Origin: Malonomonas rubra
GTDB lineage: Bacteria > Desulfobacterota > Desulfuromonadia > Desulfuromonadales > Geopsychrobacteraceae
Reading direction: 5' to 3'
Assembly: GCF_003247215.1 (NCBI RefSeq)
Contig: NZ_QKAP01000094.1
Coordinates: 1-45,648 of the forward strand
DNA: 45,648 bases
How positions within the stretch are numbered: the stretch's first letter is position 1; each line of letters begins with the position of its first letter. This document shows, in pieces, positions 28,570 through 34,092 of this stretch. Below the pieces are notes generated by a model. That model was not told the origin of the DNA and made no database searches. It worked only from the letters and a program-made list of their open reading frames with translations. Both the position numbers and the translations under genes were made by a program.

Positions 28570-29085
28570 TTAGAACCTAAAGCCTCGACCACCGTGACGA
28601 CCGTTTTCGTGCCCACCCATCAGGCCACCCAGGGTTTTTGCTTTGGCCTGCTGTTCCGGGGTCAGAATCGCATACAGTTGCTGCTGCAGCTTGGCCCGAT
28701 CGACCATCATTTCGGTTTTCAGTTCTGCCTGTTTTGCGGACTTGGCCCGGAAATCAGCCTCGTCAAAGGTGTCGGCAAAACGAGCTTCGCGCATGGCATC
28801 GCGAGCGGCCTGCATTTGCTCGCGCTGTTGCTGATGGTTCTGCCACTGTTGATTGAACAAAGCTTCAACCTTGGCCTGCTGATCATCGGTCAGATCGAGT
28901 ACCGTCGTCATCATCTCCAGACGATGGTCCATCCGGTCCTCGTGCTGTTCATAATTCATTGGCCCCGTTCCCCGGCCGCTGCCATCGCCGCCGCAACCGC
29001 CAAAACCGTAGGGACCTGCAAATGCCAGGCTGCCGGTTAACAGAGTGCCGAGAACCAAAGTTGGAATCAAAACGCGTTTTTTCAT
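28570..29085 (-). CDS. Spy/CpxP-family periplasmic protein (LTxxQ)
   Basis: A 171-residue exported protein. Start 29085 has GGAG seven bases upstream. A signal peptide (cleavage near AFA-GP) is followed by a Gly-rich stretch and long helices: LDLTDDQQAKVEALFNQQWQ and LYAILTPEQQAKAKTLGG, the paired LTxxQ motifs. A His/Gly-rich tail (GHENGRHGGRGFRF) might bind metal. Family members are small helical chaperones or Cpx-system inhibitors. A GTAAA-N5-GTAAA box upstream and the CpxAR-like pair 1.5 kb away support membership in the envelope-stress response. Confidence 0.87.
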   Translation of the reverse strand: MKKRVLIPTLVLGTLLTGSLAFAGPYGFGGCGGDGSGRGTGPMNYEQHEDRMDHRLEMMTTVLDLTDDQQAKVEALFNQQWQNHQQQREQMQAARDAMREARFADTFDEADFRAKSAKQAELKTEMMVDRAKLQQQLYAILTPEQQAKAKTLGGLMGGHENGRHGGRGFRF

Positions 29086-29113
29086 GATCAATCTCCTTTA
29101 TGTGGGTTTGTGT

Positions 29114-30542: not shown

Positions 30543-31253
30543 ATGAATCGAATTTTAGTGATTGATGACGATACCGAGCTTTGTGAACTGCTGAGCGACT
30601 ACCTGGGCAACGAGGGGTTTGAGGTGCGGAGTGTCAACCACGGGGAGGAAGGTGCGCAGCAGGTATTGGCGGAGGATTACTCGTTGGTGGTTCTTGACGT
30701 GATGCTGCCTGGAATGAACGGTTTTGATGTACTGCGCAAGATCCGTGAATCCAGTAAAGTGCCGGTGATCATGTTGACTGCACGCGGTGATGATATAGAT
30801 CGGATCGTTGGTTTGGAGCTGGGTGCTGACGATTACCTGCCAAAACCATTTAATCCCCGTGAACTGATCGCGCGGATCCGTGCCGTACAGCGGCGGATGG
30901 AGAGCAGCGAAACGGGTAGCGGCAAACTTTCCAACAATGCTGAATTGCAGGTTGGCGATCTGGTCCTTTGTCCGGCAAATCGCAGTCTTAAACGGAACGG
31001 TGAAAATATCGAGCTGACTTCTGTCGAATTCACGCTGCTCGAAGTGCTGTTGCGCCAGGCCGGTATCGTGATCAGTCGCGAAGAGCTGGTGGAAAAAGCC
31101 CTTGGGCGGCGTCTTTCTGCCTATGATCGCAGTATTGATGTCCATGTCAGTGCGCTACGCAGGAAACTGGGTAAACAGTGCGGCAGCGAAGAACGGATTA
31201 AGACCATCCGCGGTATCGGTTACCTCTACACCCGTTCGGAAAATGATTTCTGA
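30543..31253 (+). CDS. cpxR: CpxR-like OmpR-family response regulator
   Basis: A 236-residue response regulator. Start 30543 has AGGAG eight bases upstream. The receiver domain has the acidic cluster DDD at 8-10, phospho-acceptor Asp52 (LVVLDVMLPGMNG) and the conserved Lys in DDYLPKPFNPREL. The C-terminal winged helix (VEFTLLEVLLRQAGIVISRE, then SIDVHVSALRRKLGK) is of the OmpR/PhoB type. It is CpxR-like in overall pattern; the symbol is by similarity and context (Spy-like gene, GTAAA boxes). The kinase gene overlaps its stop. Confidence 0.85.
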   Translation: MNRILVIDDDTELCELLSDYLGNEGFEVRSVNHGEEGAQQVLAEDYSLVVLDVMLPGMNGFDVLRKIRESSKVPVIMLTARGDDIDRIVGLELGADDYLPKPFNPRELIARIRAVQRRMESSETGSGKLSNNAELQVGDLVLCPANRSLKRNGENIELTSVEFTLLEVLLRQAGIVISREELVEKALGRRLSAYDRSIDVHVSALRRKLGKQCGSEERIKTIRGIGYLYTRSENDF

Positions 31254-32635
31254 TGCGCAGCCTGTTCGTCAAATTTTTCTTCAGCTTCCTGCTGATAAAC
31301 ATCCTCTTTGTGGCTATAGCTCTTACTCTGACGTTTTTGCGAGACCAGGAATTTCCGCCGGAGGCTCACCAGCAGTTTGCCCGCCAGATGATCAAAGATT
31401 ACGGGTTTGAAGCGATCAGTAAATATGAAGCGGGAGGCTCTCAAGAGCTTTATGGCTATACGCAGCAGCTCTACAAAAACAGGCGGGTCCGCCTCTCGCT
31501 GTACGATGCAGAAGGGCGTTTGTTGACGGAACAGCTTAACCATATGCCCCGACGTATGCAGATGATGGCGCGGCGGGCGCTGCAGGAAAGGCAGATCGTA
31601 TTTCCGATGAGGGGTGAACGGAACTGGGTCGCCGGATCTCTGACCACTTCAAAGGGCAGGACCTACGCTGTCGCGATCGGCTTGCCGGAAAAACCACGCC
31701 CAGAGCAGCTGCTTAAAGGGTTGACGCGCGGTTTTTTAGGGTGGCGGTTGTTGATGCTGCTGGCGATTTCGGCGCTGGTCTGCCTTTGGTTAGCCCGCTC
31801 TTTCTCCGCGCCGATTAGCCGTCTGCGCAAGGCGACCCGTCAGTTTGCTGCCGGTGAACTTTCGATTCGGGTTGGAGAACAGGTAAGAGGAAAGCATGAG
31901 ATAGGTGGTCTGGCACGTGATTTTGACGACATGGCCGAACGGATCGAAGGCCTGATTGCTGGCCAGCAGCAACTGTTTCGCGATATCTCCCACGAATTAC
32001 GCTCTCCTCTGGCCCGGCTTGGGGTCGCTCTGGAACTGGCGCGCCAGGAGGGTGCCCCTGAGGCTAAGCAGAGAGCATTGCAACGGATCGAGCTGGAAGC
32101 GGAGCGGATGAACGAGATGATCGGGCAGCTGCTCAGCCTTACCCGTCTGGAGAGTGGTGCTCGCAAACTCGATCGGCATGCATTTGATCTGACGGAGATG
32201 CTCGCCGATCTGGTCCATGATGCTGACTTTGAAGCCAGGAACAGGGGCTGTCGAGTGACGTTCAGTGGGGATGGACCACTCCTCTATTTCGGCTCACAAG
32301 AGTTGCTGGCGCGGGCGGTTGAAAATGTAATCCGCAATGCTGTGAAGTACACCGCAGAGGACTCCGTCGTGGCAGTGGAATTGCTGCCCTCGGCGCAATC
32401 GATCCGGCTGCGGATCGTTGACCAAGGGCCTGGCGTGCCGGAAGAATCGCTGGCAAAATTGTTTGAGCCTTTTTACCGGGTGGCATATGCACGGGAGCGA
32501 CAAAGTGGCGGAACCGGCATCGGATTGGCTATTGCTGACCGTTCTGTCAGGTTGCATGGTGGTTCGATCAAGGCGGAAAATCATCCGCACGGTGGGCTGA
32601 TTGTCGAGATAGTCTTGCCTAGAATGGAAAATTGA
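31253..32635 (+). CDS. cpxA: CpxA-like membrane sensor histidine kinase
   Basis: A 460-residue sensor kinase whose ATG overlaps the regulator stop (TGATG). A first membrane helix (about 8-28), a periplasmic domain of about 130 residues and a second helix (about 163-182) are followed by HAMP (APISRLRKATRQFAAGELSI), the phospho-acceptor His247 in DISHELRSPLARLGVALELA and a catalytic domain with N, G1 (IVDQGPGVP) and G2 (GTGIGLAIAD) boxes. The periplasmic part would sense envelope stress, with the Spy/CpxP-like protein as possible modulator. A small selenoprotein candidate follows 39 bases later. Confidence 0.87.
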   Translation: MRSLFVKFFFSFLLINILFVAIALTLTFLRDQEFPPEAHQQFARQMIKDYGFEAISKYEAGGSQELYGYTQQLYKNRRVRLSLYDAEGRLLTEQLNHMPRRMQMMARRALQERQIVFPMRGERNWVAGSLTTSKGRTYAVAIGLPEKPRPEQLLKGLTRGFLGWRLLMLLAISALVCLWLARSFSAPISRLRKATRQFAAGELSIRVGEQVRGKHEIGGLARDFDDMAERIEGLIAGQQQLFRDISHELRSPLARLGVALELARQEGAPEAKQRALQRIELEAERMNEMIGQLLSLTRLESGARKLDRHAFDLTEMLADLVHDADFEARNRGCRVTFSGDGPLLYFGSQELLARAVENVIRNAVKYTAEDSVVAVELLPSAQSIRLRIVDQGPGVPEESLAKLFEPFYRVAYARERQSGGTGIGLAIADRSVRLHGGSIKAENHPHGGLIVEIVLPRMEN

Positions 32636-32674
32636 TATATTTTGTTTATAGAATTTAATATTGCAGGAGCCGTT

Positions 32675-32842
32675 ATGGATTTTCTTCCGCTGATTGGCAT
32701 CGTGGCGGTTTGGTATATCGTCAACAAATGGATTTTGCCCCGGATGGGAATCGATACGTGACTTTCCGGCAGGTGTGAACTTCCGCGTGACGGAAGTAAA
32801 AAGGATCAAGCGGCCGATAACGCTGAAAATAATCCGAAATAG
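32675..32842 (+). CDS. Candidate selenoprotein: small single-span membrane protein with in-frame UGA (U-x4-C)
   Basis: ATG 32675 has AGGAG before it. Twenty-eight codons give one membrane helix (MDFLPLIGIVAVWYIVNKW, then ILPRMGIDT), after which comes TGA 32759-32761. Read as selenocysteine (U29), the frame continues LSGRCELPRDGSKKDQ and AADNAENNPK to TAG 32840-32842, 55 residues in total. The motif U-L-S-G-R-C looks redox-like and follows the helix directly. A perfect seven-pair hairpin 17 bases after the UGA fits the bacterial SECIS rules. If the UGA is a plain stop, the product is a 28-residue membrane peptide (32675-32761). The topology puts the U/C motif on one membrane face; which face is unclear. 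Probably cotranscribed with the kinase. No sel genes are in the window. Confidence 0.68.
32779..32797 (+). promoter_or_regulatory. Candidate bacterial SECIS hairpin
   Basis: ACTTCCG (32779-32785) pairs perfectly with CGGAAGT (32791-32797) around the loop CGTGA. The loop begins 24 bases after the in-frame TGA and has G in its first two positions, within the published bSECIS limits (16-37 bases, short loop, early G). It lies inside the coding frame after the TGA. Confidence 0.6.
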
Positions 32843-33019
32843 CATGCTACGCGTCTTCCGCTGAGGGAGCTCCTTTTTTATGGTGCTTTTCTATTCCGTT
32901 CTGCATACATCCTTAGGAATAGCAAATATTTAATCCAAAAGTTGACAGCAGATCGAAAAGAAGCAGCTGGTCGACAAGTTGAGAGAGTTGGGATTGATCA
33001 ACTAGGGGCAAGGGGATTT

Positions 33020-34092
33020 TATGGGGAAAATATCTGGGTTTTGATTGTCGATGACTCGGCAATTGTACTCCGAACATTTCAGGAGATTCTTGATTCCGAT
33101 CCGGGAATCGAAGTTATGGGCGTTGCCAGCGAGCCATTTGCCGTCACCAAGATGAATGCTGAGATTCCCGATGTGATCACGTCGGACTTGGGAATGCCGC
33201 GGATGGAGGGCTTCACGTTTCTGCAGAAGATCATGAGTCATCCCAATCTCTGCGTTGATGTACTCCAGCTTGACCGGAAAAGGTATCGAAACTGAGCTCA
33301 AAGTCATGGTGGGGACGTCGATATCATCACCAAGTTGATTTCGGCAGTAGACAATTTCTGGAAGAATCGAAAATCCGCATTTGTGATGTCGTCAAGGCCG
33401 CTGAACAAGCACGCCTGCGCCCCACCGTTCCTACTCCCTAGCTGACCGCCGATGCGGTCCTCTCGAAAGGGTCGAGCAAAAGTCAGGCGATGATCCAGAC
33501 GACGGAACTGATTGTCGTTGTTGGCGCATCTATCGATGGAACCGAAGCCTTGAGTATTTTTCTGGAAGCGTTTCCAGCCGATTCCTCCGGCATCGTCATC
33601 GTTCAGCATATACCGGAACATTTTACCGCCACCTTCGCTCAAAGGTTGAACGAGCTCTGTAAGATTAGTGTCATGGAAGCGACCAACAACGATACTGTTA
33701 TCCGCAGATGGGCACTAATTGCACATGGCATCAAGAAGATCCTGCTCAAACATAATGGTGCCCGTTACTACATGGAGGTCAAGGACGCTCCGCTGGTCTC
33801 TCACCGCCGCCCATAGGTCGATGTACTCTTCCGTAGCGGCCCAGTATGCTGGAAAGAACTGCGTTGGTGTGATCATGACCGAGATGGGGGATGATGGCGC
33901 CAAAGGAATGCTCGAGAGGAAGGACGTCGGTGCTTACAAATATTGCCCAGGATGGTGGTTTATGGAATGCCGAAGGAGGCAAACTAGCTTGGAGGAGTCG
34001 ATAAGGTCCTGCCGTTGAACAAAATCATTCCTGAGGTGCTCCGTTGCAGCGGAACAGTAGCGTTTGAGAAGGATTCCGGCGGAACCACCTAG
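33020..34092 (+). pseudogene. cheB: Decayed cheB (chemotaxis methylesterase)
   Basis: Fragments in several frames together spell CheB. ATG 33020 gives MGKI, then a frameshift leads to [20 protein letters not shown] and [20 protein letters not shown] (receiver). A second shift near 33260 is followed by CheB-like linker sequence. The methylesterase part (from about 33490) keeps the nucleophile region [20 protein letters not shown] (canonical GG is now DG), the His in [18 protein letters not shown] and the Asp in [15 protein letters not shown] after a further frameshift near 33810. The end reads [14 protein letters not shown] to TAG 34090. At least four frame changes make it a pseudogene unless the sequence is faulty. 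No other chemotaxis genes adjoin. Confidence 0.85.

Follow-up and report, generated by a model that had tools for sequence, protein, structure and literature searches.

The locus and the predicted protein

The window, by which we mean the whole analysed stretch of 45,648 nucleotides, carries on its forward strand a 55-residue frame (32675–32842) which, based on its relatives and on pN/pS, was assigned as a selenoprotein gene in which TGA is very probably read as selenocysteine (Sec) and TAG is the stop. The frame runs for 28 codons from the ATG at 32675 to the TGA at 32759–32761, which is the predicted Sec codon 29, continues for 26 codons and ends with the TAG at 32840–32842. Its translation is MDFLPLIGIVAVWYIVNKWILPRMGIDT-U-LSGRCELPRDGSKKDQAADNAENNPK, in which the fifth residue after U is Cys; the codon of this residue, Cys34, lies at 32774–32776 and encodes the second residue of a U-x4-C pair. 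The in-frame TGA, the 26 further codons, the Cys and the TAG were all described correctly in an earlier sequence-only reading, as was a good ribosome binding site, AGGAG (32665–32669, forward strand), which is placed 5 nt 5′ of the ATG. GGAG-type sites are also present in most of the close relatives of the window gene. Further along the same strand, there are a SECIS-like hairpin (32779–32797) and a terminator-like stem that is followed by a T run (32855–32869; a consensus match only). No Rfam family matched at the selenoprotein gene at gathering scores. Since relatives conserve it, the window gene is more than a chance frame.

The neighbouring genes upstream on the forward strand encode a CpxR/OmpR-type response regulator (30543–31253; Pfam Response_reg and Trans_reg_C, with NCBIfam matches below cut-off) and a CpxA-like histidine kinase (31253–32635; Pfam HATPase_c, HisKA and HAMP). 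Among NCBIfam models, the kinase matched those for CpxA best, though never at the equivalog cut-off, and its gene ends 39 nt before the selenoprotein gene. A gene of the LTXXQ/heavy-metal-resistance type was found nearby at 28570–29091 using Pfam. The region 3′ of the gene, at 32942–34018, contains short broken frames whose translations, read by eye, appear to be decayed response-regulator and CheB-type coding. At 81–159, there is a match to group II introns in Rfam, with a score of 45.3 bits.

The 28 codons before the TGA had been proposed to form a membrane helix over their whole length. The count of codons holds, while the predicted helix is shorter and covers codons 4–23 (32684–32743, forward strand): the AlphaFold model (mean pLDDT 68.9), which was used for the helix only, has one helix at residues 4–23, and the hydropathy maximum is at residues 3–21. 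In 159 sequences, the flank on the N-terminal side has 45 positive and 131 negative charges and the flank on the C-terminal side has 294 positive and 16 negative charges, which, by the positive-inside rule, places the C-terminus inside. A single-pass topology with the C-terminus inside is therefore supported as a prediction.

Conservation across the UGA, the hairpin and the selenocysteine machinery

Relatives occur in four bacterial phyla and are nearly always UGA forms. In the genome searches, stops were read through and those inside each match were reported; the TGA site was read directly only where the sequence of the locus was taken, and for the other matches the record is a stop inside the match. 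Within the genus, eight of the ten genomes matched, each of the eight with one TGA, and the locus of Malonomonas rubra DSM 5091 (L037) is identical in contig position and protein to that of the same-genus genome G001. Desulfuromusa kysingii DSM 7343 (L050) and Pelovirga terrestris M08fum (L053) are carriers of the gene as well. Within the family, 35 of the 44 genomes matched, with a TGA in 34 and the remaining match ending at a contig edge, and within the order 108 of 136 matched, with a TGA in all except this contig-edge match and one weak match (106 of 108; the weak match is in G463). In the phylum of the window, 170 of 395 genomes matched and a TGA was present in every match listed, down to E = 5.6e-7. 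The Spirochaetota gave matches in 26 of 247 genomes, with a TGA in 26 of 26, and KSB1 in 52 of 82, where the site is TGA in 50, TGC in one and TAA in one. In the Planctomycetota, which were sampled as the phylum of a Kuenenia record, 25 of 294 genomes matched; the site, read directly, was TGA in 22 and Cys in three, and the search itself shows one of these TGA forms without a stop, its match ending early.

The KSB1 relative in which TAA stands in place of the Sec codon (L268 in genome G1131) may represent a decayed gene, an error or a loss of the tail. Six Spirochaetota genomes (G525, G946, G972, G995, G1024 and G1045) have two matches each, all with TGA, which are possible paralogues. A locus titled Chloroflexi (L034) was dropped as evidence for a further phylum; it is nearly identical to the Desulfuromonadaceae loci L035 and L036 and is probably a wrongly binned contig. 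Neither the window protein nor one of the Cys forms, when used as a query, matched anything in a plasmid collection, and of 26 pattern matches in viral contigs none was confirmed.

The sequence-only reading had recorded a vague impression that relatives with Cys in place of U exist. Eleven such relatives, seven, three and one from three sets of loci, have Cys exactly at the UGA column; the scan of named genomes gave 142 relatives, of which 80 were kept (73 TGA and seven Cys). The 159 distinct sequences, among which the Spirochaetota and KSB1 are represented only by L093 and L107, comprise 149 with U and ten with Cys at the site. The second Cys follows at +5 residues in 147 of them, at +6 in eight and at neither place in four, and the exceptions are U sequences (eight of 149 with the second Cys one residue later and four without it at either place). 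In an alignment of 34 diverse members (A2), W13, N17, W19, L21, P22, G25, T28, U/C29 and C34 are invariant; in more distant members several of these residues are relaxed, and T or S before U/C is retained.

The frame behind the TGA, whose loss in relatives would have spoken against a selenoprotein, is kept. Across 28 sequences, the 28 codons that precede the UGA have a pN/pS of 0.32 and the 12 codons that follow it have one of 0.34 (0.22 for codons 1–5 and 0.48 for codons 6–12), and the same stretch in the two other frames gives 1.57 and 1.15. The comparison of synonymous and nonsynonymous change that had been suggested as a check thus points to purifying selection in frame, about as strong after the UGA as before it, and the frame behind the UGA is, by this measure, coding. 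pS falls from 0.72 in codons 1–5 to 0.37 in codons 6–12, which is the hairpin region, and this drop is expected if the RNA of the hairpin is constrained too. It is very improbable that the TGA is an ordinary stop that closes a 28-residue membrane peptide and leaves a meaningless frame behind it. The 28-codon frame does have its own ribosome site, one KSB1 relative does have TAA at the site, and the case for Sec comes from sequence comparison; however, the in-frame selection after the TGA, the conservation of Cys34 and its neighbouring residues, the eleven relatives that read through with Cys and the covariation of the hairpin, described below, all argue against this explanation.

A bacterial SECIS element is a hairpin directly behind the UGA, with its loop about 16–37 nt away and a G in the first two bases of the loop. 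In the window, the stem 32779–32785 pairs with 32791–32797 around the loop CGTGA at 32786–32790 (ACTTCCG-CGTGA-CGGAAGT), with seven of seven pairs and -8.2 kcal/mol. The stem begins 17 nt and the loop 24 nt after the TGA, and the G is in the second loop position, so the hairpin behind the UGA, the loop distance and the loop G are all present. This is the seven-pair hairpin that had been reported from the sequence, with the same loop and spacing, and it has a p value of 0.013 when the peptide is recoded 1000 times with synonymous codons. The place of the hairpin is constant across lineages and its letters differ: CTTCCG/CGGAAG with CGTGA here, and CTCCC/GGGAG with CGTGC, GAGGTC/GACCTC with GGT or GTGCGGT/ACCGCAC with GTC elsewhere. 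When each locus was compared with 1000 synonymous recodings under the loop rule, with bulges unscored, p ≤ 0.05 was reached in 35 of 73 U loci of one set and 51 of 77 of the other, two sets that share genomes, and p ≤ 0.01 in 24 of 77; 38 of 73 and 26 of 77 did not reach p ≤ 0.05. These p values are per locus, and the loci are related by descent. Five of the 73 U loci and three of the 77 have no hairpin under the rule, some of them because bulged stems were unscored.

In an alignment of 15 rows, 12 of them distinct (A3), both sides change in three of the seven pairs and 95.2% of the cells pair; ten of the 24 loci with the loop CGTGA in that place, which have an extra base in the 3′ arm, were left out. 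In a second alignment (A4), which includes every one of the 25 loci selected by their loop letters, eight rows have a change on both sides of the same pair, the only one of the five to show this, and 96.8% of the cells pair. The paired cells and the covariation score of A4 exceed those of shuffles, while the pair count and the pair types do not. Shifting the partner by 1–3 columns lowers the pairing to at most 57% in A3 and at most 74% in A4. Judged from these comparisons, the hairpin is an RNA element that covaries and is often above the synonymous expectation.

Only one of the 11 Cys loci reaches p ≤ 0.05 under the loop rule. This locus, the planctomycete-titled L102, has a perfect GTGCGGT-GTC-ACCGCAC hairpin behind TGC, identical to that of the U form L095, and its genome lacks a SelB match above cut-off. 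Such a hairpin is what a recent Sec-to-Cys change would leave behind, and L102 looks like one. Another Cys form, L263, has a 7-bp stem whose loop, ACACC, breaks the loop rule; when the rule is dropped, p is 0.023.

A genome without sel genes would likewise have spoken against Sec. In the genome of the window, SelA is present, with SelB 88 nt from it, together with a tRNA-Sec that is matched over its full length at 71.1 bits; the cut-off of the tRNA-Sec model was also passed in five of 14 control genomes, so it is the height of the score that counts. In the phylum of the window, SelB was above cut-off in 162 of 170 genomes with the family, a count obtained by joining two genome listings by hand via the genome label, compared with 191 of 225 others (p = 8e-4). 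Among genomes that were searched individually, SelB was present in 28 of 30 with U and two of ten with Cys (p = 2e-5, or 2e-4 when a third Cys genome with SelB in two pieces is counted). SelB went unmatched in ten U genomes (eight from the phylum of the window, G532 and G545), all of which have tRNA-Sec at 68.8–79.2 bits, which makes gaps in assembly or scoring the likely cause. Among 20 planctomycete genomes that lack the family, 14 have SelB, and hence the presence of the family does not follow from SelB alone.

Together, the Cys relatives, the kept frame, the hairpin and the presence of SelA, SelB and tRNA-Sec support the original reading of the UGA, and the comparison strongly indicates that residue 29 is Sec. 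The best explanation, which we consider very probable, is that the gene is genuine and encodes a very small selenoprotein with Sec and a single-pass layout. SelB with Sec-tRNA would bind the hairpin 18–36 nt behind the UGA, and Sec would be inserted at residue 29. The product would be a single-pass membrane protein with its C-terminus inside, in which Sec29 and Cys34 would lie at the cytoplasmic face just past the helix, ahead of a charged, variable tail.

Gene neighbourhoods and possible roles

Neighbours vary by lineage. The neighbour counts that follow are raw, without a background rate, flank lengths vary and some loci are the same genome taken twice; long flanks were taken for 20 of the 25 planctomycete genomes with the family and for 40 genomes of the phylum of the window. 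The position behind cpxA, which had been part of the first description, is true at the window and, in the wider sense of a gene of the histidine-kinase cluster as the immediate upstream neighbour (ending 51–91 nt before), at 20 of the 27 closest loci. In distant loci it is rare: outside the close set, a CpxA-like match lies within 4.5 kb at five of 95 non-planctomycete loci. A CpxA-bound role for the whole family was rejected since the kinase linkage is local. This bears on a reading in which Sec29 and Cys34 of the selenoprotein would bind a metal and serve in metal handling or pass a metal-stress signal to a CpxRA-type kinase. The cpxRA-type pair in the window, the kinase-cluster neighbour in the close loci, the LTXXQ/heavy-metal-resistance-type gene and RND pump genes near four of the 95 non-planctomycete loci would fit such a role, which we nevertheless regard as unlikely given that the kinase linkage is lineage-specific and that there are only two conserved chalcogen ligands.

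Within 4.5 kb of the same 95 loci, there are also genes for NrfD (six), DsbD/CcdA (six), thioredoxin (three) and ArsR (two), and a NuoG/formate-dehydrogenase-like gene, of which one member was identified using Pfam/NCBIfam, is near 19 of 126 loci. Two Cys forms stand before cytochrome bd-like genes. The NrfD-type, DsbD/CcdA, NuoG/formate-dehydrogenase-like and cytochrome bd-like genes would be in keeping with a protein that serves quinone-linked membrane enzymes as a small accessory subunit and whose Sec would act in assembly or reductive protection and carry no sulfur. This seems somewhat less unlikely than a metal role, but no single complex is common to the lineages and the counts are raw. 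A gene for an FmdB-type zinc ribbon protein directly adjoins 14 of the 95 loci (L089, L091, L105, L107, L111, L126, L130, L212, L216, L220, L221, L223, L227 and L235), and this protein is a possible partner of the selenoprotein.

A sulfur context was found mainly in the planctomycete Cys forms. An MBL-rhodanese gene is near five of the ten Cys forms and two of the 19 distinct U forms, and at four of these five Cys forms an SQR-like gene is also present. The flavoprotein beside the Cys form L195 has NF049943 as its best NCBIfam match (259 bits compared with a cut-off of 525), blast-similar genes lie beside L092, L112 and L197, and TauE/SafE genes are near both U and Cys planctomycete forms. The MBL-rhodanese proteins passed no NCBIfam equivalog cut-off, and to call them persulfide-oxidising is therefore a guess from their architecture.

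We infer the chemistry and the partners partly from these planctomycete neighbourhoods (the SQR-like flavoprotein, MBL-rhodanese and TauE). The selenol of Sec29 would attack a disulfide or take up sulfur and Cys34 would resolve the product, so that the pair, tethered to the membrane near quinone-linked enzymes, may serve as a relay for thiol or sulfane-sulfur chemistry. The redox or metal site that the sequence-only reading had proposed for the protein is likewise a putative one. Set against metal binding and a subunit role, we give thiol or sulfane-sulfur transfer about an even chance. Our more specific proposal is tentative: the family may be old and almost Sec-only, a group of selenol carriers that are tethered to the membrane and occur in four or more phyla. 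At the cytoplasmic face, with quinone-linked enzymes (sulfide:quinone reductase, for example) beside them, they would take up sulfane sulfur or reduce a thiol partner and pass their load to rhodanese or persulfide-oxidising enzymes. Such a family would have been overlooked because its gene resembles a 28-codon fragment.

Comparison with known families

Profile searches with 34 members linked the protein to no known family. The best Pfam match, PF04602 at E = 0.0041, is not convincing, and NCBIfam release 20.0 gave only two models of ATP synthase subunit B, at E 0.027 (NF009988) and 0.21; PF04602 and NF009988 were discarded, as either identity would be senseless for a 55-residue protein. Up to E = 1, Pfam gave no thioredoxin-type family for any of these 34 members, and only a single helix is predicted. 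A sequence search of the PDB with the family profile gave no match.

In the literature that was searched, mainly the openly available main text of published articles, the family is undescribed, and an earlier mention elsewhere is possible. Table 1 of PMC13188914 (2026), which covers 119 prokaryotic selenoprotein families and subfamilies, has, in its accessible part, no entry with the U-x4-C motif of this protein. The deep-Sep study (PMC12013277), whose test genomes included Geobacter sulfurreducens PL and Desulfuromonas soudanensis, described nine new families, none of which is named for such a protein in the accessible text, and it states that deep-Sep may miss selenoproteins without Cys homologues. 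The older surveys, including PMC4807772, PMC1242214, PMC1914089 and PMC1794560, do not name the family in their accessible parts. A likely selenoprotein of 170 of 395 genomes in one phylum and 52 of 82 in another is missing from the accessible Table 1 of PMC13188914. A gene caller that stops at the TGA sees 28 codons and methods that depend on Cys find few members, so that further small families may likewise have escaped detection.

The family shares with the bacterial SelB/SECIS selenoproteins, as listed in Table 1 of PMC13188914, the UGA and the distance of the hairpin, Sec/Cys pairs, the sel machinery and U and C in a short motif. In contrast to them, it is single-pass and about 55 residues long, and in our samples Sec far outnumbers Cys. 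TsoA, with its LULAXC motif (NF045695; named in Table 1 of PMC13188914), likewise has a Cys shortly after Sec, four residues after it by the name of the motif and five here; its model had no match among 34 members. The selenoprotein subtype of type III sulfide quinone reductase (NF049943) is related to the family as the product of a neighbouring gene and not as a homologue. What the family would add to bacterial selenoproteins is a single-pass membrane layout. This layout is known from the eukaryotic SELENOK and SELENOS, which have a short N-terminus, one helix and a cytoplasmic Sec in a hydrophilic tail. The likeness is in layout only, and the decoding machinery differs; the Pfam search with 34 members gave no SelK/SelS family, and the PDB profile search was also blank. 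If the proposal of a selenol carrier is true, the family would be a bacterial counterpart of SELENOK and SELENOS in layout.
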